NCBI GenBank assembly: GCA_016871445.1
Contig: VHDH01000014.1
Coordinates: forward strand, 1-46,983
Length of the DNA stretch: 46,983 nucleotides
Source: Verrucomicrobiota bacterium
GTDB lineage: Bacteria; Verrucomicrobiota; Verrucomicrobiia; Limisphaerales; SXTU01
Reading direction: 5' to 3'
Positions 30,092 through 46,707 of this stretch are shown here, piece after piece. Position 1 is the stretch's first letter. Every line of letters begins with the position of its first letter. The notes under the pieces were generated by a model that worked only from the letters and a program-made list of their open reading frames with translations, had not been told where the DNA came from and did no database searches. A program made the translations under genes and the position numbers.

Positions 30092-30119
30092 AGACGGACG
30101 GCCTCGTTTCCACTTGGTT

Positions 30120-30135
30120 CGAATCATGTGATTCG
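30120..30135 (+). promoter_or_regulatory. Perfect inverted repeat upstream of the TonB receptor
   Basis: The sequence CGAATCATGTGATTCG has 7-base perfect arms and a 2-base centre. It lies 85 bases before the receptor start at 30221 and 28 bases after the stop of the His-rich gene. Operator or small RNA hairpin are both possible. Confidence 0.4.
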
Positions 30136-30220
30136 GCGCGATGCCGCCCGTCAGGGCACCCCCGACCAATTGTGTGAGCCGGAGGTGCCACGTCGGATGT
30201 CCATCAAACCATTTTGTCCC

Positions 30221-32413
30221 ATGAAACGCTCGTTGTTGTCCTATCTATCTCCCTCGTTCCGCTCTTTGAACGGCCCCTTGTTGCTTGGCCTGTTGGCCCC
30301 AGCCGGTGGCGCGCTGGCTCAAACCGCGCCGCCCGCCGCGCCTGCATCTACTAACCAGACCCAAAAAGTCCAGGCGGAGCTGCCGCCGGTGGTCGTGACC
30401 GCGAGTCCGATCCCCAGCAGTCTCTTCGACCTCGCGCAGCCCGTCACCGTGCTGACGGATCAGAAACTTCGCCAGCAGTTGTCCTCCACGCTCGGCGAAA
30501 CGCTCGCGCGCCAGCCGGGCATCAACTCCACCTACTTCGGCCCCAACGCCAGCCGGCCTGTCATCCGCGGCCTCGGCGGCGACCGCGTCCGCATTCTGCA
30601 AAACGGTCTGGGCACGATGGACGTGTCCAATACCAGCGACGACCATGCCGTGGCCATGGACCCCATCGCTCTCAAGCGCATCGAAGTTGTGCGTGGCCCG
30701 GCGGCACTGCTTTACGGCCCCAACGCCGTCGGCGGCGTTGTTAACCAGATTGATGGGCGTATCCCTGAGCAGCGGCTGGACCGGGCTTTTTCCGGACGGG
30801 CGGATGTGCGCGTGGATTCGCCGTCCAGCGGTAAAGTGGGCGCATTAATGGTCGAGGGCGGAGCCAAAAACGGTTGGAACTACCACCTCGATGGTTTCCG
30901 GCGTGAATCCAGCAACATCGTCATCCCTGGTTTCGCGCAAACCGATGCAGAGCGTGCCACCACCGGCGACACCACTTCGGGTAAATTGCTCGGCAGCCAA
31001 GCCATATCCGACGGGGGAGCAGTGGGCACGTCATACGTATGGGATAAGGGGCATATTGGGGCGTCGTTTCAAGGGTTGAACAGCGACTATGGCGTCGTGG
31101 TTGAGCCCGGGATAAACATTCGGCTTTACCAGCGGCGCATTGACCTGGCTGGCTCGTTCCTACAGCCCTTCGATGGAATTCAGTCCATCAAATACAAAGT
31201 CGGTCGCGCCGACTATCGGCACACGGAATACGACGAGGGTGAAGTTGGGACGGTTTTCGACTCCCTCGCTTACAACGGTCGTTTTGAAGTTCTACATAAT
31301 CAAGTGGGTCGGCTCGAAGGTGCCATTGGCTACGAAGTTCGGCATGAAAAGCTTAGCGCTCGTGGCGAGGAGGCATTTCTGCCGCCAAGTCAGACGGTGA
31401 TCAATTCCATCTTCGCCTTCGAGGAAATGAAGTGGGATACGTTCCGTATTCAGTTCGGCGGACGCGTGGACTTTGTAAGTGTCGACGCGAGTCCCCTCCC
31501 GGGTAACCCATTTTTCACGGCTAACCAAACGCGCAGCTTCCCTACAGGCAGCGGCTCGTTCGGCATGGTCTATCGGCCCGTGCAAGAATGGTCTGGGGCG
31601 CTGAACTTCTCCTATACACAGCGTGCGCCAACCGCCACGGAGCTATATGCCAACGGACCGCATCATGCGACGGGGATGTATGAAATCGGCAATCGAAACT
31701 TCAATACCGAGGGCAACCTTAGCTTGGATGTTTCCGTGCGTCGCGAGACCGGCCCCTTCACGGGGCAAGTGGGTTTCTTTTACCACCGCTTCAGCAACTT
31801 CATAGCGCCCTTCGCCGGCGTCACAGATTTGGGCGCATCGCTCGTGAATAACGACGGGGGTAATGCCGACGATGGCTCGAACGGCGGCGTGGCTGGCGAC
31901 GGCGTGGCGGATCGCGATGCGGACGGTGACGGCAACGTGGACGAAACGTTGGACGTATTTAGGTTCCGTGGCGTCCGGGCGGAGTTCTATGGCTTCGAGG
32001 GCCTGTTGACGTGGCATATTCTGGAAGGGGAATCACAAAGCCTGCATCTGGACCTCAAGTCCGATTACGTGCGTGCGCGCGACCTCAGCAACAATAGCTC
32101 CCTGCCGCGCATTTCGCCCTTACGCTTCGGTGGTGAGCTCAACTACGAGCGTGGCGCATTCAGCAGCGGCGTTGAGTTGATGCGCGTGAGCCGGCAGGGG
32201 AGCGTCTCCGCCGGCGAGCGGCCTACAGCTGGTTACGTGATGCTCAACGCGGAAATCGCCTACAAGTTCGGCTCCTCGCCCAACTCGGTGGAGATTGCTC
32301 TGCGCGGCCTCAACCTGCTCGATCAGGAAGCCCGTAACCACGTATCGTTCCTGAAGGAAATCGCGCCCATGCCCGGCCGCGGCGCGATGATCTCGCTGCG
32401 CGCCACGTTCTGA
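30221..32413 (+). CDS. TonB-dependent outer-membrane receptor, ZnuD-like (putative zinc)
   Basis: An outer-membrane beta-barrel that imports a scarce substrate using TonB energy. The 730-residue protein starts with a signal peptide ending near GGALAQ, then a plug domain with PPVVVTASPIP, RPVIRGLGGDRVRILQNG, SDDHAVAMDPIALKRIEVVR and LLYGPNAVGGVVNQIDGRIP. These plug motifs and the end (ARNHVSFLKEIAPMPGRGA and a final aromatic, F) resemble the ZnuD zinc receptors. An extracellular-side loop has an Asp/Gly-rich run with a DxDxDGxxD calcium-loop motif (D566-D574). ATG 30221 is preferred; ATG 30197 is also possible. It follows the His-rich gene in the same direction, and a strong terminator follows it. 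Confidence 0.88.
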   Translation: MKRSLLSYLSPSFRSLNGPLLLGLLAPAGGALAQTAPPAAPASTNQTQKVQAELPPVVVTASPIPSSLFDLAQPVTVLTDQKLRQQLSSTLGETLARQPGINSTYFGPNASRPVIRGLGGDRVRILQNGLGTMDVSNTSDDHAVAMDPIALKRIEVVRGPAALLYGPNAVGGVVNQIDGRIPEQRLDRAFSGRADVRVDSPSSGKVGALMVEGGAKNGWNYHLDGFRRESSNIVIPGFAQTDAERATTGDTTSGKLLGSQAISDGGAVGTSYVWDKGHIGASFQGLNSDYGVVVEPGINIRLYQRRIDLAGSFLQPFDGIQSIKYKVGRADYRHTEYDEGEVGTVFDSLAYNGRFEVLHNQVGRLEGAIGYEVRHEKLSARGEEAFLPPSQTVINSIFAFEEMKWDTFRIQFGGRVDFVSVDASPLPGNPFFTANQTRSFPTGSGSFGMVYRPVQEWSGALNFSYTQRAPTATELYANGPHHATGMYEIGNRNFNTEGNLSLDVSVRRETGPFTGQVGFFYHRFSNFIAPFAGVTDLGASLVNNDGGNADDGSNGGVAGDGVADRDADGDGNVDETLDVFRFRGVRAEFYGFEGLLTWHILEGESQSLHLDLKSDYVRARDLSNNSSLPRISPLRFGGELNYERGAFSSGVELMRVSRQGSVSAGERPTAGYVMLNAEIAYKFGSSPNSVEIALRGLNLLDQEARNHVSFLKEIAPMPGRGAMISLRATF

Positions 32414-33371: not shown

Positions 33372-35635
33372 CAATGCGGGGAAGGTGGGGATGGGGGCTC
33401 GGCTTGGCAAGTGCCCGCCGCAGTCGCGTCCAGTCGGGCCACGGCTTCCAACGCGGCGACAGTGAAGACCATCGGATACAACCGCTCGTAATACCACAGC
33501 TTGGCGAAGTAGAATCCTATGGGTTCAGGTTGCGTCCAGGAGCCGTCCTCGACGCGGGAGAGAAGCCAACCAATGCCACGTTCAAGCGAGGTGAGCGCGC
33601 GTGGCTCGCTCAGTTGAGTAGCTTCAGCAAGAGCTTCGATGACAAGGGCAGTTTCAACGACGGACGCAGTTCCACTGGCAGCTTTGCCCCAGCCACTTGA
33701 AGAGGATTGGTTCCTCGCCGCCCAGGAGACGCAGGCGTTGTAGAGAAAACGTGGGACCTGGGTTTGGGCAGCCCCGCAGGTCATTGCGACGACGAACGCC
33801 TTTAAGGTTCTGGAAGTGCCATAAGCAGCGTTTGCCTCGGCTGGTAAATGTTGGTTCCCAAACCAAAGCGGTAACCAAGATTCATCCTTCTGCATTGATT
33901 TAGCGAAATAGGTCACTGATTTGCGTGAGGCCAAATCTATCCGTTTTTGCAAATCGGGCGGCATGTTGTCACGCCACGCCAGCCACGCTCGCACCGCGTG
34001 GGCCGTGATATCTGGGCTGCTGCGGTCAAAAGGCAAATTAGTCCAGCCCCGGCAGAAGGTGGGAATGCCCCCGTCGCGGTTTTGTAGGTCCAGCAGCCAC
34101 TTCACCCCCGCCATAGCTGCCTCTTGTACGTGCGGCTCAGGAGTACGTGTGGAATACACCGTGCGGCGTGCGGAATGGGTGGCTGGGGCCGCGTCATGTG
34201 TGCCTCCATCTCCGCCAGAAGTAAGACTCCTTATTTCGCATTCCGCATTCCGCATTCCGCCCTCGCTCAAAACCTTGAGTGCCAGTAGTGCACCCGCCGT
34301 GTCGTCCGCATCCGGCACGCCGCCGGGCAGGTCGGTCCAAGCCCAACCACCGGGCGCGGCTCCGGTGTAGGGATGCTCAGTGCGATATTGTTGGGCCAGC
34401 AGCCAGTCAAGGATGCGCCTGCGCTCCTCGGCGCTCATCACCCCGTGAATGCTCGGGCCTAGGGCGTTGACGGCGAGCGTGGTTACCCAAGTCGCGAGGT
34501 TGGTGTCAATTGGCCAGCTGCCATCTGGGCGCGCAGACTTGAGTAAAAAGCTCACGCCGCGCCGGGCCACGGGATGGTCAGCAAGTTCGCTGCCCGCGAG
34601 GCTCATAGTCACGAAGCTCGTCAGCGGCGTGGCTTCGAGGAACCCGCCGTTCGGCGGCTGAATACGCTCCAGCACGCGCAGTGTCTTCGCCCGCGCGCGG
34701 TCGCGGAGCAGGCGCAGGAGCGGGTTGCGGGTGGGCAGGTGATGATGCCTCACCCGCCCGATGGCGATGAGTGCTGGCAGCGCGTAGCTCACGACGGGCA
34801 ATTTCAGGGTGGCAAAAAACTTTTGCGGTAGTGTGGCCAGCTCGAACGGAAGCTGAATAACACCTCCCCAAGCGGCTTTGCCCTCGCCCAGCCGTCCGGC
34901 CAGTGCACACATTGTGAGAATGGGGACGGAGAAGGTACGATCCTTGCCGTAGCGCGCGATAATAGCGGAGATGAGCTGACGCGTTTCGAGTTTGGGGTTT
35001 GGGGTTTGAGGTTTGAGGTTTGGTTGGCTTGATGTGGTGGAGTGTTCGGTATTACCCATCCAGTTTTCTTTGGGCGTCGCGGAGGGCATGGGCTTGGGGT
35101 CAGAACTCTGGGCACGGCACACTGAACATTTCTCCACCAACCACGCCTCGGCGCGCCGCACCGTTTCAGGCCAACGCAACTCCGCTCCTGGCACTGCGCC
35201 AAAGGCCGCCCAGCAAAGCGCGGTGGTGCTGATGTTCGAGAAACTCAAGGTCGTGTCTCCCCAGCCGCCGTCGGCATTCTGGTGCTCCCCCAGCCATTTG
35301 AGGCCGGATTCGATGGCCAGTTGCTGACCGTTGACCGCCGGCCGCTCCCGCGCGTGCCGCTGCCAGAGTTCAAGCGCGGTGACAGCGGTCGCTGTGGAGA
35401 GTGCGCTGCTGGATAACCCTCCCTCCCAATGACTGTGTGGGCCGCGCTCGGCTAACAGCGCGGCTCGAGCCTTGGCGAGCGCGCGCTGCAACCGCTCGCG
35501 GTCAAGGCGCGGCGCCCGCTGCGGGGCGTCTGGTTGGGCGGCGGACACGGGCGGAGTTTCGCTGGAAGGCTGGTAAAATTCACGCTTGTTCGTTTCGTCT
35601 GAGAATGTTTTTGTTCGCAGCCGTTTATACGGCAT
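33371..35635 (-). CDS. Squalene-hopene-cyclase-like class II terpene cyclase
   Basis: Proteins of this family protonate and cyclise squalene or related isoprenoids at the membrane. The 754-residue product has the alpha/alpha-barrel repeats with QW-like motifs (HQNADGGWGD, ARPDGSWPID, LQNRDGGIPTF, VEDGSW) and the catalytic acid motif DADDTA (D442, D444, D445). The segment PFELATLPQKFFATLKLPVVSY matches the membrane-entry region of squalene-hopene cyclases. It is longer than the usual 630-720 residues, mainly from a polar N-terminus (1-45) and two low-complexity insertions (about 172-219 and 458-500). Each insertion contains translated 7-base tandem repeats. The product may be a hopanoid or another terpene. 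The divergent CBM48-like gene starts only 23 bases away. Confidence 0.85.
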   Translation of the reverse strand: MPYKRLRTKTFSDETNKREFYQPSSETPPVSAAQPDAPQRAPRLDRERLQRALAKARAALLAERGPHSHWEGGLSSSALSTATAVTALELWQRHARERPAVNGQQLAIESGLKWLGEHQNADGGWGDTTLSFSNISTTALCWAAFGAVPGAELRWPETVRRAEAWLVEKCSVCRAQSSDPKPMPSATPKENWMGNTEHSTTSSQPNLKPQTPNPKLETRQLISAIIARYGKDRTFSVPILTMCALAGRLGEGKAAWGGVIQLPFELATLPQKFFATLKLPVVSYALPALIAIGRVRHHHLPTRNPLLRLLRDRARAKTLRVLERIQPPNGGFLEATPLTSFVTMSLAGSELADHPVARRGVSFLLKSARPDGSWPIDTNLATWVTTLAVNALGPSIHGVMSAEERRRILDWLLAQQYRTEHPYTGAAPGGWAWTDLPGGVPDADDTAGALLALKVLSEGGMRNAECEIRSLTSGGDGGTHDAAPATHSARRTVYSTRTPEPHVQEAAMAGVKWLLDLQNRDGGIPTFCRGWTNLPFDRSSPDITAHAVRAWLAWRDNMPPDLQKRIDLASRKSVTYFAKSMQKDESWLPLWFGNQHLPAEANAAYGTSRTLKAFVVAMTCGAAQTQVPRFLYNACVSWAARNQSSSSGWGKAASGTASVVETALVIEALAEATQLSEPRALTSLERGIGWLLSRVEDGSWTQPEPIGFYFAKLWYYERLYPMVFTVAALEAVARLDATAAGTCQAEPPSPPSPH
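34238..34258 (-). repeat. Perfect 7-nt tandem repeat inside the cyclase gene
   Basis: Three exact GCATTCC units (34238-34244, 34245-34251, 34252-34258; GGAATGC on the coding strand), with a decayed unit on the low-coordinate side. They are translated in frame as part of GGMRNAECEIRSL (about residues 459-471), just after the catalytic DADDTA motif. Confidence 0.85.
34988..35022 (-). repeat. Near-perfect 7-nt tandem repeat inside the cyclase gene
   Basis: Five units: GAGTTTG, GGGTTTG, GGGTTTG, AGGTTTG, AGGTTTG (34988-35022). On the coding strand they read as CAAACCT/CAAACCC/CAAACTC and are translated as part of QPNLKPQTPNPKLETR (about residues 204-219), a Pro-rich linker. Confidence 0.9.
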
Positions 35636-35658
35636 CGGTTAAAAATTAATTTGAAACA

Positions 35659-39581: not shown

Positions 39582-40733
39582 TTGATGAAAAACGTCGTCC
39601 TTCTCGGCTCTACCGGCTCCATCGGAACCAGCACGCTTAAGGTCGCCGACGACCTGCCTGACCGCCTGCGCATCATCGGCATGGCGGCAGGCGGGAACTC
39701 TGAACTGCTCCTCGAACAGACGCTCAAATATCAACCCGCTGCCATCTCCATCGCGGACCCAGCCAAAGCTGTTGAACTTCAAGCCGCCCTCGGCACCAAG
39801 GTGCAAGTCCACGCCAGCAACGACGGCCTGCTGAAGCTTGCCACCATGCCCGAGGCCGACATCGTCCTTATTGCCATCGTCGGCACCGCAGGTCTGCAAC
39901 CCGCGCTCGCTGCCATCCGCGCGGGCAAGGACATCGCCGTCGCCTCCAAGGAAATTCTCGTCATGGCCGGTGAGATCGTGATGAACGAAGCCCGCAAGCA
40001 TGAAGTGAAAGTCCTCGCCGTGGACAGCGAGCACTCCGCTATCTTCCAGTGCCTCGACGAAAAGCCGAGTTGCTCCGTCCGCAGCCTTTGGCTTACGGCT
40101 AGTGGCGGCCCCTTTCGCGACAAGACGGCGCATCCGAGAGAATCTTTCGCCGGAATCACCCTTGAGCGCGCCCTCAAGCATCCGAGTTGGGTTATGGGCC
40201 GCAAGATCACCATCGATTCCGCCACGCTCTTCAACAAGGGACTGGAGATGATCGAAGCTCGCTGGCTCTTTGACATCGGCATGGATCGCGTAAAAGTAAT
40301 AGTGCACCCGCAAAGTGTGGTGCACTCCATGGTTGAGTTCGTGGACGGCTCCATCATCGCCCAACTCAGCACGCCGGACATGTGCCTGCCCATCCAATAC
40401 GCGCTGACCTACCCCGATCGCGTCGGCAGCGACCGCGTGCAGACGAACTTCGCCAAGATCGGCAACCTGACCTTTGAGGAGCCGGACACCGACCGCTTTC
40501 CCTCCCTCAACCTCGCGCGACGCGCAGGCGAAGTTGGCGGCACCCTCCCCGCCGTGCTGAACGCCGCCAACGAAGTTGCCGTGGAAGCCTTCTGCAACCG
40601 CCAGCTCAAGTTCACCGACATCTCCGCCGCCGTCGCCCGCGCGATGGACGCGCACCGAGTCATCGCGCATCCCACCTTGGAGCAAATTCTAGGGGCAGAT
40701 TTGTGGGCTCGCCGTAACGCCCTAAGCGTATGA
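39582..40733 (+). CDS. dxr: 1-deoxy-D-xylulose 5-phosphate reductoisomerase
   Basis: Dxr makes 2-C-methyl-D-erythritol 4-phosphate with NADPH, the committed step of the MEP isoprenoid pathway. The 383 residues carry the NADPH loop GSTGSIG (8-14), ASKE (120-123), metal site DSEH (147-150), TASGGPF, the HPSWVMGRKITIDSATLFNK flap region, and E221 in KGLE. The last codon region overlaps the next gene by four bases (ATGA). No ribosome binding site is evident. Confidence 0.96.
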   Translation: MMKNVVLLGSTGSIGTSTLKVADDLPDRLRIIGMAAGGNSELLLEQTLKYQPAAISIADPAKAVELQAALGTKVQVHASNDGLLKLATMPEADIVLIAIVGTAGLQPALAAIRAGKDIAVASKEILVMAGEIVMNEARKHEVKVLAVDSEHSAIFQCLDEKPSCSVRSLWLTASGGPFRDKTAHPRESFAGITLERALKHPSWVMGRKITIDSATLFNKGLEMIEARWLFDIGMDRVKVIVHPQSVVHSMVEFVDGSIIAQLSTPDMCLPIQYALTYPDRVGSDRVQTNFAKIGNLTFEEPDTDRFPSLNLARRAGEVGGTLPAVLNAANEVAVEAFCNRQLKFTDISAAVARAMDAHRVIAHPTLEQILGADLWARRNALSV

Positions 40734-41893
40734 CTCTGTCCATAAAGCACAGCACCCTGCGCGACTTGTATGACAAGGTCGTCGCGGGTGAGCGTTTGTC
40801 TGAGGCTGACGCTTTGCGCCTGTTCGAGAGCAAGGACATCAACGCCGTCGGAGCTATCGCGGACTTCGCGCGGCAGCAAAAGGTGGGCAACCGCGCTAGT
40901 TACATTCTCAACCGCTACATCAACTACTCGAACTACTGCATTCTTTCCTGCCAGTTCTGCTCCTTCGCCCGGAAGAAGCGCGATAAGGACGGTTTCGAAC
41001 TGACCCTCGATCAGATGGTGCAGAAGGCGCGCGAGGCGCTGGCGTTAGGGATCACCGAGCTGCACATCGTTGGCGGGCTGCACCCCTCGCTGCCGTTCAG
41101 TTACTATGTTGATTTTCTCAAGGCGCTCAAAGCCCTCGACCCGCGCCTTCAGCTCAAGTGCTTCACCGCCATTGAAATCCTCCATCTTGCGTGGATGGCC
41201 AAGAAGCCCGTGGAGCAAACTCTGGTTGAACTCAAGGCTGCTGGGCTAGAATCCCTCACCGGCGGTGGCGCGGAGATTTTCCGCAAGGAGGTTCGCCACG
41301 CCATTGCGCGCGGCAAGGAAAGTGCCGAGGAGTATCTCAACGTGCACCGCACCTGGCACCGGCTCGGTGGGCGCAGCACCTGCACGATGCTTTTCGGCCA
41401 TGTCGAGAAGCTCGAAGACCGTGTGCATCACCTGAGCTTGTTGCGGGGGCTACAGGATGAGACGCGTGGCTTCACCGGCTTTGTGCCGTTGCCCTATCAG
41501 CCGGAGAACAACGACATCCCCGTGCGTGTGCCGCCGACAGGCTTCGACCAGCTCCGCACGATTGCCGTGAGCCGGCTTTACCTCGATAACTTCGATCATA
41601 TTACTGCTTATTGGGTCGGCATGGGCCTCAAGCTCGCGCAAGTCGCCCTAAGCTACGGCGCGGACGACCTGCATGGGACCATCTTGGAGGAGCACATCTT
41701 TCATATGGCCGGCGCAAAATCCCCGCAGCTCCAGACTGAGGCGGAAATGCTGAAGGCCATTCGCGAGGCGGGGAGAACCCCAATTCAGCGCAACACGTTT
41801 TATGAGCCGGTGAAGGAATGGACGCCGGTGGCAACTCTGTCTGGCTCAGAAGGGCAGCGAAAGAATCTGGTTTCGTTGGCTGTCAATGGGTAG
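40730..41893 (+). CDS. mqnE: Aminodeoxyfutalosine synthase (radical SAM)
   Basis: MqnE joins 3-[(1-carboxyvinyl)oxy]benzoate to SAM-derived adenosine, an early step of the futalosine menaquinone pathway. The 387 residues hold the [4Fe-4S] motif C70-x3-C74-x2-C77 in NYCILSCQFCSFARKK, then ELHIVGGLHPSLPF, SLTGGGAEIF, VHRTWHRLG and LQDETRGFTGFVPL, which match MqnE better than the related MqnC. It overlaps dxr by four bases, so isoprenoid and quinone-ring synthesis are transcribed and translated together here. Other mqn genes are not in the window. Confidence 0.9.
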   Translation: MTLSIKHSTLRDLYDKVVAGERLSEADALRLFESKDINAVGAIADFARQQKVGNRASYILNRYINYSNYCILSCQFCSFARKKRDKDGFELTLDQMVQKAREALALGITELHIVGGLHPSLPFSYYVDFLKALKALDPRLQLKCFTAIEILHLAWMAKKPVEQTLVELKAAGLESLTGGGAEIFRKEVRHAIARGKESAEEYLNVHRTWHRLGGRSTCTMLFGHVEKLEDRVHHLSLLRGLQDETRGFTGFVPLPYQPENNDIPVRVPPTGFDQLRTIAVSRLYLDNFDHITAYWVGMGLKLAQVALSYGADDLHGTILEEHIFHMAGAKSPQLQTEAEMLKAIREAGRTPIQRNTFYEPVKEWTPVATLSGSEGQRKNLVSLAVNG

Positions 41894-41936: not shown

Positions 41937-42596
41937 ATGAAAACCACCATCGAAGGCGCGCCCTCATTTGCCTACCTCCACGTGGATCTCGATCCGGGTG
42001 AGTCGGTCATAGCTGAGTCCGATGCCATGGCCAGCATGGCTGCCGATCTTGGGATGCAGGCGAGTTTAAATGGCGGGTTACTCTCCGGCCTCGCCAAAAA
42101 GTTCCTCGCAGGTGAGTCGTTGTTCGTGAACACCTTCACCAATACCACTACGGGACCGCGCCGCGTGACGCTGGTGCAGACTACGCCGGGCAACATGCGG
42201 CAAGTTCAGCTCAACGGCGAGAGTGTATGCCTCCAGCCAGGGGCTTACATCGCTTCCACTCCCGGCCTGAAGCTCGGTCTGCGTTGGGCCGGCCTGGTCA
42301 GTGGCATCGCGCGCGAGGGCTTCTTCAAGCTCACCGTCTCCGGCACGGGCACACTCTGGTATGGCGCGTATGGCGAGCTGCTTGAACGGCAGGTGGATGG
42401 TGAATACATTGTAGACACTAGCCACCTGGTCGCTTACGAGCCCCAAATGAAGCTCAAGCTCCAACTCGCCGGGGGGCTGTTCTCAAGTCTTTTTGGCGGG
42501 GAGGGCTTTGTTACCCGCGTTGAGGGTAAAGGTAAGATTGTCATCCAGACCCGCAGCATCAGCGGCTTGGCAAGTTGGTTGAACCCGAGAATCTGA
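41937..42596 (+). CDS. AIM24-family protein, paralog 1
   Basis: A 219-residue member of the AIM24/TIGR00266 family, which has a beta-rich double-helix fold and no settled bacterial function. Shared motifs with the two following genes are KKFLAGESLFVNTF, GTGTLWYGAYGE, VDGEYIVDTSHLVAY and GGEGFVTRVEGKGKIVIQTR. No signal peptide or membrane span is obvious. The start at 41937 follows mqnE by 43 bases. The next paralog starts nine bases after its stop, so the three form an operon. Confidence 0.85.
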   Translation: MKTTIEGAPSFAYLHVDLDPGESVIAESDAMASMAADLGMQASLNGGLLSGLAKKFLAGESLFVNTFTNTTTGPRRVTLVQTTPGNMRQVQLNGESVCLQPGAYIASTPGLKLGLRWAGLVSGIAREGFFKLTVSGTGTLWYGAYGELLERQVDGEYIVDTSHLVAYEPQMKLKLQLAGGLFSSLFGGEGFVTRVEGKGKIVIQTRSISGLASWLNPRI

Positions 42597-42605
42597 TTTC
42601 CCTGC

Positions 42606-43283
42606 ATGCAAATCGACCTCCTCAAACGGCCCGGCAATTCTGCCGCCCGCGTCACGCTCTCGCCCGGCGAACACCTCACTTCCGAGTCTGGCGCGATGAT
42701 CGCCATGAGCGACAATCTGGAACTCACGACCACGACGCACAAGCGGAACACCGGCTCTTTGTTTGCGGCTGCCAAGCGGTTGCTCGCGGGTGAGTCGTTG
42801 TTCCTCAACCACTTTTCCGCCAGCAGCGTGGCGGGTGAGGTCTTTCTCGCTGCCACGCTGCCGGGCGATATGCTGCGTTATGATTTACAGGGAGAGAACC
42901 TCATCGTGCAGTCCGGCTCGTTCGTCGCCTGCGAGAGCAGCGTGAATCTCAATCTCGGCTGGCAAGGGTTCAAGTCCTTCTTCTCCGGCGAGAGCGTCTT
43001 CTGGCTCCAGCTCAGCGGCACCGGCCCCGTCATCATCTCCAGCTTCGGGGCGATTTATCCGATCGAGGTGGACGGCGAATACATCGTGGATACCGGACAT
43101 ATCGTCGCGTTCCAAGAGACGTTGAACTTTACCGTCACCAAGGCCGGCGGAAGCTGGGCCACGGCCATCCTCGGCGGCGAAGGTCTCGTCTGCCGCTTCT
43201 CCGGCCGCGGCACGGTCTGGTGCCAGAGTCATAACGCAAAGGGCTTTGGCGTGGAACTCGGGCCGGAACTCAAACCTCGTTAA
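42606..43283 (+). CDS. AIM24-family protein, paralog 2
   Basis: The second of three tandem AIM24-family genes, 225 residues. It has AKRLLAGESLFLNHF, WQGFKSFFSGESVF, VDGEYIVDTGHIVAF and GGEGLVCRFSGRGTVW, which align with both neighbours, while the rest has diverged widely. That suggests old duplications rather than a recent copy event. It sits nine bases after paralog 1 and five bases before paralog 3. The function is not known; a joint assembly of the three is plausible. Confidence 0.85.
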   Translation: MQIDLLKRPGNSAARVTLSPGEHLTSESGAMIAMSDNLELTTTTHKRNTGSLFAAAKRLLAGESLFLNHFSASSVAGEVFLAATLPGDMLRYDLQGENLIVQSGSFVACESSVNLNLGWQGFKSFFSGESVFWLQLSGTGPVIISSFGAIYPIEVDGEYIVDTGHIVAFQETLNFTVTKAGGSWATAILGGEGLVCRFSGRGTVWCQSHNAKGFGVELGPELKPR

Positions 43284-43288
43284 CCGCC

Positions 43289-44209
43289 ATGGCCATGCAA
43301 GTTTACATCCTCCGCACCGGCACGCAGGAAGGTCCGTTTCCCATTGAGCAAGTCCGTCAAATGCTTGCCGCAGGCGACCTGTTGCCCACGCACCACGTCT
43401 TCCATGAAGGTCTCACCAACTGGGTGCTGGCCAGTCAGTCGCCCGCATTAGCAAAGCCCGGCGGGCCGCCGCCCCTCCCCGCCGCTCCCGCAGCATCTGG
43501 CAATTCCGGACTGCTCACCAGCAGCTACAGCACAGATACGCGCAGAGAATTCCAATATACCATCGAGGGCCGCCCTGACTTTGCCTTCCTCACCGTGCAA
43601 GTCCCCGCCAACCAGACGCTCAAGGTCGAGGCCTCCGCGATGGCGACCATGGACACAAACATGGAGATGAAGACCAAGATGCGTGGCGGCCTGGCGCGCC
43701 TGCTCACGGGCGAAAGCATCTTCGTCAACGAGTTCACCGCTGCGAACGCCCCCGGCAGCATCGGCATCGCGCCGGGCGCCCCGGGCGATCTCGAGCACGT
43801 CTACATCGACGGCGACACGATTTACCTCCAGAGCAGCGGCTTCGTCGCCAGCGGCATGGGCGTGACGCTCGACAGCAAGTGGCAGGGCTTGAAAGGCTTT
43901 TTCACCGGCGAGGGCCTCTTTCTCATCAAGTGCTCCGGTAAGGGCGACCTCTGGTTTAACACCTATGGCGCGATGTTCTGCGTGAACGTCTCAGGCAGTT
44001 ACGTGGTAGACACCGGTCACATCGTTGCCTTCACTGACGGGCTGCAATATGAGGTCGGGCGTATCGGCGGCTACAAGTCGCTGTTTTTCTCAGGTGAGGG
44101 CTTCGTCTGCCGATTCCGTGGTCAGGGCAAGGTTTGGGTGCAGACGCGCAAGCTTGGCGCGTTTGCAAGTTGGGTCTGGCCATTCCGCCCGGTGCAGCGG
44201 GGCAATTAA
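43289..44209 (+). CDS. AIM24-family protein, paralog 3, with N-terminal GYF-like domain
   Basis: The third tandem paralog has 306 residues. Residues 1-52 form a GYF_2-like domain (VYILRTGTQEGPFPIEQVRQ, then HEGLTNWVLAS), which in relatives binds Pro-rich peptides. A Pro/Ala linker (58-72) leads to the AIM24 domain with RLLTGESIFVNEF, WQGLKGFFTGEGLF, YVVDTGHIVAF and GEGFVCRFRGQGKVW. The start may be ATG 43289 or ATG 43295. The GYF domain makes this member the likely one to contact another protein. A gap of 197 bases without recognisable signals follows. Confidence 0.85.
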   Translation: MAMQVYILRTGTQEGPFPIEQVRQMLAAGDLLPTHHVFHEGLTNWVLASQSPALAKPGGPPPLPAAPAASGNSGLLTSSYSTDTRREFQYTIEGRPDFAFLTVQVPANQTLKVEASAMATMDTNMEMKTKMRGGLARLLTGESIFVNEFTAANAPGSIGIAPGAPGDLEHVYIDGDTIYLQSSGFVASGMGVTLDSKWQGLKGFFTGEGLFLIKCSGKGDLWFNTYGAMFCVNVSGSYVVDTGHIVAFTDGLQYEVGRIGGYKSLFFSGEGFVCRFRGQGKVWVQTRKLGAFASWVWPFRPVQRGN

Positions 44210-44406
44210 CCCGATGGTAAATTGCAGGACCCACCCAGGGAAAAAGGCCGGACGCGCCGCTGATACTGGCGAGGTTGTGCCAACGAGAATTCAAACAAAC
44301 ACTTTCAAGAGGTGATCACCAGCCGGACCCAAGACAAGCTGCCCACTACAAAAGCATTGCTAGCATCGCGTATTATCTGAAGGATTCTTTTTTGGATCCG
44401 AATCTT

Positions 44407-46707
44407 ATGAAACATATCCTAATCATTGCCGCCTCTCTTGCCCTCGCGTCTGGTCTGTCCGGCGCGCCCGCGGGCAACTCCGCAGACGGCATTTTACGCG
44501 GGCCGTTTTTCTCCGGTACCATCATGGCTAGCGACGGCAAGCAGCTCGCCGCCGGCAAGGGCATCGTCATAACGGTTGGGCCAAACAAGGATCATTACGT
44601 TTGTTATGACACCGACACGCTGCGTTGCGCGCTGGGCTGGTCGGGTGACTTCCTAGAATTCGGCAAGACTCAGGAGCGCATCGAGTGGCCACCGCCGCCG
44701 AAGATTAAAGGTAAGCTCGCGTTCGAGACGAAGATTGGGTCGGGTTGGGCGACGAGCGAGGATTTCAGCGACCCGCGTCCGAACCAGCAAGGCCCGCTGC
44801 CGCGCGCACAGGCGAAGTATCGCGGCCTCTACGTCCACAGCGACAATGTGGTGCTGTCGCACACGGCGGGCGACGCGGGCGTGCTGGAAATGCCCGGCCT
44901 TGAAATCATCGGTGGTCGGAGCGTGTTTACCCGCACGGTGAACATTGGCGCGGGGAAGCAGACGCTGCGCTTCCTCAGCGGCGCGGGCTTGGTGCCCGGT
45001 CTTGAGGATAGCGCGGTGAAGACCGAGTCGGTCAAGGAGTTCAAGCTCGTCATCTTTGGCAACAGCACGAACCGTCTGGTCATCGGGGTCACGGGTAACA
45101 CTGACCTGAGCAAGCTCACCGCCGCCAAGCGCAACCAAGCTGGGGCTTGCGAACTGGCACTCGTGGTGGAGCCCCGGACCAAGGCGCTCAACTTGAAAGT
45201 TTTCATTGCTCGCGTGGACACCGATACGGAAGTGGACGCTATTCGCGCTGCGCTCAAGTCTGCCAAGGCCCCGGCTGACCTCGCCTCGCTCACCAAAGGC
45301 GGCTCCGCGCAGTGGCCCGCTGTCGTCACCAAGGGCGTGCCCGGCACCAACGCAGGCCCTTATGTCGTGGACCACATTACCGAACCCACCCCCAACGCGT
45401 GGAACGCCAAAACCTACTTCGGCGGGCATGACTTCTTCCCCGACGGCCGCGCGGCGGTCTGCACTTTCCACGGTGACGTGTGGGTGGTCAGCGGCTTGGA
45501 TGAGAAGCTGGAGAAGATTACTTGGAAGCGTTTCGCCTCCGGGCTGTTCCAGCCGCTCGGCCTGAAGATCGTGGATGGAAAAATCTACATCACTGGCCGC
45601 GATCAGATCACGCGGTTGCATGACTTGAACGGCGACGGCGAGGCGGACTTCTACGAGAACTTCAACAACGACACGTTCGTCACCGCGAACTACCACGAGT
45701 TTTGCCTCGGCCTCGACACGGACAAGGCGGGTAACTTTTATTACGCCAAAGGCGCACCGTGGCCGCCCACCGTGCAGTCCGCGCATCAGGGCACGATGCT
45801 CAAGGTGTCCAAGGACGGCTCCAAGCTCGACGTCATGGCCACCGGCCTGCGCGCGCCCAACGGCATGGGCATCGGCCCGAACGGTTGGATCACCGTGAGC
45901 GACAACCAGGGCCACTACATGCCGTCGAGCAAGCTGAACCTCATCCGCGAAGGCGGCTTCTACGGGATGCGTCAGGCTGCGCATGGCAAAGCCCCGCCCG
46001 ATGACAACATCCACGCCTATGACCAGCCCATGTGCTGGTTGCCGATGAACATGGACAACTCCAGCGGCGGCCAAGTTTGGGTCGAGAGCACGAAGTGGGG
46101 TCCGCTTAATGGTCAGTTACTCTTCATGAGCTACGGCAAGGGCACGCTCTTTTCTGTGATGCCGCAGGAAGTGGACGGCACGGTGCAGGCGGGCATGGTG
46201 CAGTTCCCGCTGAAGTTCCCGAGCGGCACGATGCGCGGTCGCTTCAATCCACAGGACGGCCAGCTCTACACCACCGGCCTGCGTGGCTGGCAGACGGCGG
46301 GCGTGCGTGACGGTGGCTTCAGCCGTGTGCGCTACACCGGCGCGCCCGTGCGGATGCCGCAGGCGCTCCACGTCTCGAAGGACGGCGTGCGCATCACCTT
46401 CACCACCGCGCTCGACGAAGCCAGCGCCAAGGACGCGGGCAACTGGAACATCGAGATGTGGAACTACATTTACTCCGCCGGTTACGGCTCGCCGGAAGTC
46501 TCCACAAAGGACCCGAAGGTGAAGAAGCACGACAAGCTGGAAGTGACTGGCGTTGAGCTCAGCGCGGACAAAAAGAGCGTCACGCTCAAGCTCTCCGAGC
46601 TGACCCCGGCGATGCAGATGAAGATCAAGTTTAACGTGAAGTCCGCCGATGGTGAGAATGTGGTGGCCGACATCTACAGCACCATCCACAAAGTGGCGGC
46701 GAAGTGA
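44407..46707 (+). CDS. Secreted beta-propeller protein (sorbosone-dehydrogenase-like, DUF6797-type)
   Basis: A large exported protein of the type common in planctomycetes and verrucomicrobia. ATG 44407 gives 766 residues with a signal peptide (MKHILIIAASLALASGLSG). The N-terminal domain (about 25-300) resembles DUF6797. A beta-propeller region (about 310-630) has GLKIVDGKIYITGRDQITRL, a Ca-loop-like DLNGDGEADF, NGMGIGPNGWITVSDNQG and GLRGWQTAGVRDGGF, as in PQQ or sorbosone dehydrogenase-like proteins. An Ig-like C-terminal domain follows. No CxxCH heme motif is present, so it lacks the cytochrome domain often fused in this group. Its stop overlaps the GTG of the broken gene that follows. Confidence 0.8.
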   Translation: MKHILIIAASLALASGLSGAPAGNSADGILRGPFFSGTIMASDGKQLAAGKGIVITVGPNKDHYVCYDTDTLRCALGWSGDFLEFGKTQERIEWPPPPKIKGKLAFETKIGSGWATSEDFSDPRPNQQGPLPRAQAKYRGLYVHSDNVVLSHTAGDAGVLEMPGLEIIGGRSVFTRTVNIGAGKQTLRFLSGAGLVPGLEDSAVKTESVKEFKLVIFGNSTNRLVIGVTGNTDLSKLTAAKRNQAGACELALVVEPRTKALNLKVFIARVDTDTEVDAIRAALKSAKAPADLASLTKGGSAQWPAVVTKGVPGTNAGPYVVDHITEPTPNAWNAKTYFGGHDFFPDGRAAVCTFHGDVWVVSGLDEKLEKITWKRFASGLFQPLGLKIVDGKIYITGRDQITRLHDLNGDGEADFYENFNNDTFVTANYHEFCLGLDTDKAGNFYYAKGAPWPPTVQSAHQGTMLKVSKDGSKLDVMATGLRAPNGMGIGPNGWITVSDNQGHYMPSSKLNLIREGGFYGMRQAAHGKAPPDDNIHAYDQPMCWLPMNMDNSSGGQVWVESTKWGPLNGQLLFMSYGKGTLFSVMPQEVDGTVQAGMVQFPLKFPSGTMRGRFNPQDGQLYTTGLRGWQTAGVRDGGFSRVRYTGAPVRMPQALHVSKDGVRITFTTALDEASAKDAGNWNIEMWNYIYSAGYGSPEVSTKDPKVKKHDKLEVTGVELSADKKSVTLKLSELTPAMQMKIKFNVKSADGENVVADIYSTIHKVAAK

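Follow-up and report, generated by a model that had tools for sequence, protein, structure and literature searches.

The AIM24 genes of the window

The window, i.e. the whole stretch of 46,983 nucleotides that was analysed, contains three tandem genes of the AIM24 family, here referred to as A, B and C, which are listed with their domains and associated features in Table 1. All three are open frames on the same strand, separated by gaps of only 9 bp (A-B) and 5 bp (B-C), and their scores lie far above the curated cut-offs. The Pfam AIM24 profile (PF01987, cut-off 25.7) matches A and B over the full length with 194.6 bits (E 2.1e-57) and 225.9 bits (E 5.5e-67), respectively, and the full domain of C with 207.8 bits (E 1.9e-61), and NCBIfam TIGR00266 (cut-off 96.6) scores between 199 and 221 bits for the three proteins (E 6.2e-59 for A). 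The proteins also match the sequences of the structures 1YOX and 1PG6, with E-values from 1e-18 to 1e-27. The tight tandem arrangement of three paralogs, as given in a preliminary description made from the DNA letters, is thereby confirmed.

Table 1. Features of the triplet, its surroundings and its putative partner.
Feature	Position	Strand	Basis or remark
Radical-SAM CofH/MqnC-type gene, 43 bp upstream of A	40730..41893	+	Pfam
Gene A, AIM24 protein, 219 aa	41937..42596	+	PF01987, TIGR00266; own tree group
AIM24 domain of A	41946-42554	+	PF01987
Gene B, AIM24 protein, 225 aa	42606..43283	+	PF01987; own tree group bar one long branch
AIM24 domain of B	42636-43232	+	PF01987
Gene C, AIM24 protein with N-terminal GYF_2, 306 aa	43289..44209	+	PF01987, GYF_2; own tree group
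Accessory GYF_2 domain of C (residues 6-54)	43304..43450	+	Pfam; weak match to AgmX GYF, 7z3c
Linker of C from GYF_2 to AIM24, Pro/Ala-rich, GGPPPLPAAPAA	43451..43555	+	sequence
AIM24 domain of C	43556-44149	+	PF01987
M48 partner in source genome	G000:C117:487-1692 (outside the window)		72% identity with the linked congener gene

The paralogs have diverged considerably, B and C being 36% and 38% identical to A. The motifs VDGEYIVDT and GESLF, which had been described as strongly kept, are indeed exact in A and B, but they are relaxed in C (VSGSYVVDT and GESIF). Judged from dN/dS values of 0.04-0.18 between congener pairs (with dS near saturation in some pairs), purifying selection acts on A, B and C alike. 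Hydropathy indicated no membrane helix in any of the three, and no AIM24 genes beyond A, B and C were found in the source genome (a draft of 3.49 Mb in 236 contigs).

The gene upstream of A, of the MqnC type, was considered as a partner and set aside: since the gene beside the triplet varies even within the genus, this neighbour is unlikely to belong to the system. The gene downstream of the triplet (44275-46707) matches DUF6797 and, weakly, DUF7133; the TTG listed as its start probably lies too far upstream, and an ATG near 44408 opens a signal-peptide-like stretch. Elsewhere in the window, a gene on the minus strand (33374-35638) matches the N- and C-terminal domains of squalene-hopene cyclase and is located near a TonB-dependent receptor (30092-32410). 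At eight triplet loci (e.g. L039 6916-7530, L044 6716-7309 and L048 7415-8053), the opposite strand encodes an NADPH-dependent FMN reductase directly behind the triplet or close to it.

Conservation and phylogeny of the triplet

A contig scan with C as the query, which limits the sampling to loci that have C, yielded 33 loci. The order is A-B-C at every one of them wherever the contig extends far enough, and among the examined loci, contig ends aside, no A, B or C orthologs were found separated from one another; at a single locus (L065) A is disrupted by a frameshift and the frame of the adjacent M48 gene, discussed below, is broken as well. The loci are labelled as Verrucomicrobiota, Gammaproteobacteria (Alcanivorax, Kistimonas, Kangiellaceae and others), Bdellovibrionota, Bacteroidota, Sumerlaeota, Spirochaetota (Leptospiraceae), Cyanobacteriota and others. 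The neighbourhood survey that the preliminary description had proposed thus recovers a conserved triplet, in fixed order, from at least seven phyla.

The triplet is rare and sporadic: it was found in 3 of 289 sampled Verrucomicrobiota and, in the samples of Gammaproteobacteria and Bacteroidota, in the centre genome only; most other AIM24-bearing genomes in these three samples have one AIM24 gene. Seven of ten relatives from the same genus have at least three AIM24 genes, and genomes from the other families of the order mostly carry a single gene or none. When 17 triplet genomes were searched as a whole, A, B and C usually constituted the complete AIM24 complement. A common copy number of one among relatives had been named beforehand as the observation that would speak against a three-part system. 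It is true family-wide, but the single-copy sequences of the order that were placed in the tree (see below) belong to a subfamily different from A, B and C.

A maximum-likelihood tree of 94 AIM24 sequences (bootstrap not fully settled) separates the positions of the triplet into three groups, A (support 98/89), B (100/99) and C (97/83), each of which spans the triplet phyla; the B group also draws in one very long single-copy branch. Because the groups are separate and each extends across phyla, the three-way split is, as far as the tree goes, older than the spread of the operon, which may have been inherited or transferred as a whole. A recent lineage-specific duplication was ruled out on the same ground. 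That the genes are redundant tandem duplicates without a joint assembly would agree with the AIM24 fold that is predicted for all three; nevertheless, with each position forming a separate group across phyla, with the order fixed and with purifying selection on all three members, we regard redundancy as highly improbable. The sequence comparisons rather support the view of the triplet as one conserved unit of three non-interchangeable members. The three-part assembly that had been suggested earlier can in that sense be retained, whereas a physical complex is a plausible extension based on modelling (see below).

Several side observations concern the sampled genomes. Loci L004-L027, from the same order, contain the common, separate single-copy AIM24 subfamily, with proteins of about 260-350 aa. 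Genome G008 has two different triplets, on contigs C13 (L030/L048) and C189 (L037/L073), one with the M48 gene and a C that lacks GYF, the other with GYF and without M48, and this genome may be a mixed bin. Five loci (L034, L035, L039, L044 and L047) stem from metagenome-assembled genomes (MAGs) labelled Akkermansia muciniphila or Klebsiella pneumoniae; their genes group with Pedosphaera-like Verrucomicrobiota and the labels look wrong.

The N-terminal modules of C

The presence of a GYF domain on the third protein, as described earlier, was borne out by the Pfam match to GYF_2 (40.9 bits against a cut-off of 25.8, E 1.8e-10). This domain had been taken to suggest that C binds a Pro-rich partner. 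In favour of such recruitment as the core function of the triplet, the domain is real, it is kept in the C orthologs of the genus, where it usually lies beside a Pro-rich linker, and it is also found in C of other Verrucomicrobiota and at the loci L040 and L060. However, C begins straight with the AIM24 domain in Bacteroidota, Bdellovibrionota, Spirochaetota, Cyanobacteriota, Sumerlaeota and Kistimonas, and it has a different N-terminal domain in several Gammaproteobacteria. Moreover, the GYF tripeptide is absent from the domain in the window, and the nearest Pro-rich stretch is the linker of C itself, which is among the clearest Pro-rich stretches of the window ORFs, such that binding by the domain, if there is any, may be in cis. 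Since GYF_2 is missing or replaced in the C of most other phyla, it appears from these comparisons to be an exchangeable adaptor added on to C and not the core of the triplet; the idea of a Pro-rich partner is thereby weakened, and we consider it improbable that it describes the central function. The related remark that Pro/Ala-rich tails occur on several proteins holds weakly, as such ends were seen on only a few ORFs of the window.

In the case of L049, L050, L053, L055 and L063, GYF_2 is replaced by a domain that is close to the C-terminal domain of ribosomal protein L7/L12, together with a Pro/Ala-rich linker. The assignment relies on one sub-threshold Pfam hit, i.e. that of the N-terminus of C from L053 (E 1.7e-5, just under the Pfam cut-off).

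An M48 metallopeptidase is linked to the triplet

The survey revealed a partner that the preliminary description did not mention. A gene for an M48 metallopeptidase adjoins the triplet in 24 of the 30 loci with a visible flank (L033, L051 and L061 start inside the triplet and were left out of this count). It is located upstream everywhere except in the cyanobacterium, where it lies downstream, and the junction is typically either a 4-base stop/start overlap (ATGA) or a spacing of a few bases, with wider gaps at L034, L050, L056 and L058. For L035, L036, L037 and L040 the M48 ortholog is encoded elsewhere in the genome. The same holds for the source genome, as for several of its congeners. In the source genome this separation looks real, given that the MqnC-type gene and A stand 43 bp apart on an uninterrupted contig. 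No M48 gene of this type was found in two triplet carriers, Kistimonas and the Leptospiraceae MAG. According to their annotation, the isolates Aureibacter tunicatorum and Flammeovirga kamogawensis carry an M48 gene followed by three TIGR00266 genes on large plasmids.

The association is also apparent from gene content. A full-length M48 partner is encoded in 11 of 12 triplet genomes and in 4 of 54 others (p 1.4e-8 for the 66 genomes, in which relatives are not independent; p 1.5e-5 when every genus is counted once), and some genomes (G006, G052) have the M48 gene without a triplet. The genomic link between triplet and M48 gene is thus well supported. That a link between AIM24 and M48 exists outside the triplet as well is evident from locus L091 (G177:C35, 3396-5178), where 8 bp separate a single-copy AIM24 gene from a divergent M48 gene.

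The peptidase domain of the partner was identified by PF01435 in five proteins (E 1e-25 to 1e-32), and the zinc motif HExxH is present in 20 of 20 partners, including that of the source genome. An AF2 model (pLDDT 85, pTM 0.72) shows seven strands and a helix, followed by a long helix with a membrane segment and the M48 domain. In Foldseek searches the protease part matched 3C37 and BepA, and the N-terminus, for which no Pfam family was found at E 0.01, matched many PH domains weakly (E about 0.002-0.02). The fold of the N-terminus is therefore predicted to be PH-like. The charge balance around the membrane helix (+7 before, -1 after) follows the positive-inside rule and argues for a predicted topology with a cytosolic N-terminus, one anchoring helix and an extracytoplasmic protease, a prediction with which hydropathy and the AF2 model are in agreement.

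Assembly and possible mechanism

To model the contact between neighbouring members, B and C were folded as a single chain from twelve in-frame read-throughs, with Gly substituted for the stop codons solely for the purpose of modelling. When the relative placement of two equal domains is unknown, we estimate that the pTM should be near 0.5. The AF2 model of the B-C pseudo-fusion reached 0.76, an uncontrolled value in the sense that homologous domains could pack alike, and as it exceeds the estimate, packing of B against C is suggested. The B-C model made from the proteins of L044, as distinct from those of the window, matches the fold of 1PG6/1YOX (TMt 0.78-0.81). A 523-aa open frame in G034 had the appearance of a natural B-C fusion; this was ruled out by a TAA between B and C. 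TRAP-like proteins, yeast Aim24 included, have been reported as oligomers, and a physical three-part assembly of A, B and C is plausible in the light of these models.

Three genes of old, separate subfamilies thus occur in the order A-B-C, frequently next to an M48 gene with which they also co-occur. The reading that we favour, at an even chance, is that the three proteins assemble in the cytosol into one hetero-oligomer, which works together with a dedicated protease of the PH-membrane-M48 type at the inner membrane. A, B and C would be three specialised TRAP-like beta-sandwich subunits of this oligomer, which would most likely dock on the inner face of the membrane, on or beside the predicted PH-like domain of the protease. 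The docked assembly could then position or restrain the M48 protease, and changes in the state of the membrane would be relayed to protein quality control on the opposite membrane face. We infer the hetero-oligomer, the contact that it would make with the protease and the direction of the control from the genomic pattern and the models.

Alternatively, the triplet could be a scaffold for the membrane or the respiratory chain that organises lipids and complexes, with the M48 protease serving for clean-up from the same operon and making no contact with the AIM24 proteins. The known role of yeast Aim24, which supports MICOS, cardiolipin remodelling and respiration, fits such a scaffold, and so do the exceptions without M48 (Kistimonas and the Leptospiraceae MAG), in which the triplet stands alone. 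Yet the linkage to M48 recurs in distant phyla and even next to a single AIM24 gene, which favours a closer functional tie, and we therefore judge a scaffold with an uninvolved protease to be rather unlikely. A different role again, in a Ter-type stress system in which bacterial AIM24 acts with TerD, was proposed on the basis of Ter gene neighbourhoods and has a precedent in the AIM24 genes reported beside TerD in other bacteria (PMC5822837, citing Anantharaman 2012). For the triplet it is extremely improbable: of 27 triplet genomes, 24, the source genome included, lack TerD, and the other three encode it on contigs other than that of the triplet, so that a link to TerD is unsupported by any of the 27.

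Going one step beyond a docked, protease-associated oligomer, the M48-AIM24 operon might be a bacterial inner-membrane stress module akin to Aim24/OMA1 at MICOS, in which an AIM24 ring in the cytosol, built from three types of subunit, senses the membrane state and gates the M48 protease. We consider this specific version a long shot. If true, it would provide the first defined molecular role for a bacterial AIM24 protein and would suggest a bacterial root for the mitochondrial Aim24-OMA1 link. In line with the preliminary description, according to which AIM24 proteins have no settled bacterial role, a study from 2019 stated that the physiological function of every bacterial AIM24 protein was not known (PMC6677890). 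With the triplet and its recurrent partner protease, that role becomes testable biochemically in the culturable Alcanivorax, Flammeovirga and Aureibacter.

The component domains are already known. In the literature searched (which mostly lay outside the subscription journals) we found neither a three-subfamily AIM24 operon with an M48 partner nor a joint treatment of AIM24 and M48, and the link between the two appears to be unreported there. Nor did that literature yield a paper on bacterial GYF domains in connection with GltJ.

Comparison with known systems

A, B and C are full-length members of the AIM24/TIGR00266 family and match by sequence both of its structures, 1YOX (Pseudomonas PA3696) and 1PG6 (Streptococcus SpyM3_0169). 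The usual form of the family in the sampled genomes is a single gene, whereas here it comes as a fixed set of three subfamilies with an M48 neighbour. As to AIM24 proteins in a recurrent bacterial neighbourhood, the TerD-associated members of the group I ter clusters are comparable, but the triplet has another neighbour and most triplet genomes are devoid of TerD. In the case of GYF_2 (PF14237), for instance in AgmX/GltJ of Myxococcus, C shares the GPF-containing fold region (by the Pfam match, the match to 7z3c being weak); on C it is an optional module that is lost or replaced in most other phyla. The protease domain of the M48 partner matches BepA and Geobacter Q74D82 (3C37) by sequence and fold, and relative to these proteins the partner is predicted to have an additional N-terminal PH-like domain and a membrane helix.

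The mitochondrial system combines an AIM24 protein and an M48 protease at the inner membrane as well. Yeast Aim24 is a TRAP-like inner-membrane protein that is found at about 400 kDa and supports MICOS, and the M48 protease OMA1 has been reported to associate with MICOS; a direct contact between Aim24 and OMA1 is not reported in the literature consulted. Yeast has one Aim24 where the triplet genomes have three AIM24 subfamilies, and the likeness of the bacterial partner to OMA1 considered here is membership of the M48 family. The parallel is a lead by analogy, and the bacterial AIM24-M48 linkage points to a possible direct link between Aim24 and OMA1 in mitochondria that is worth a look.
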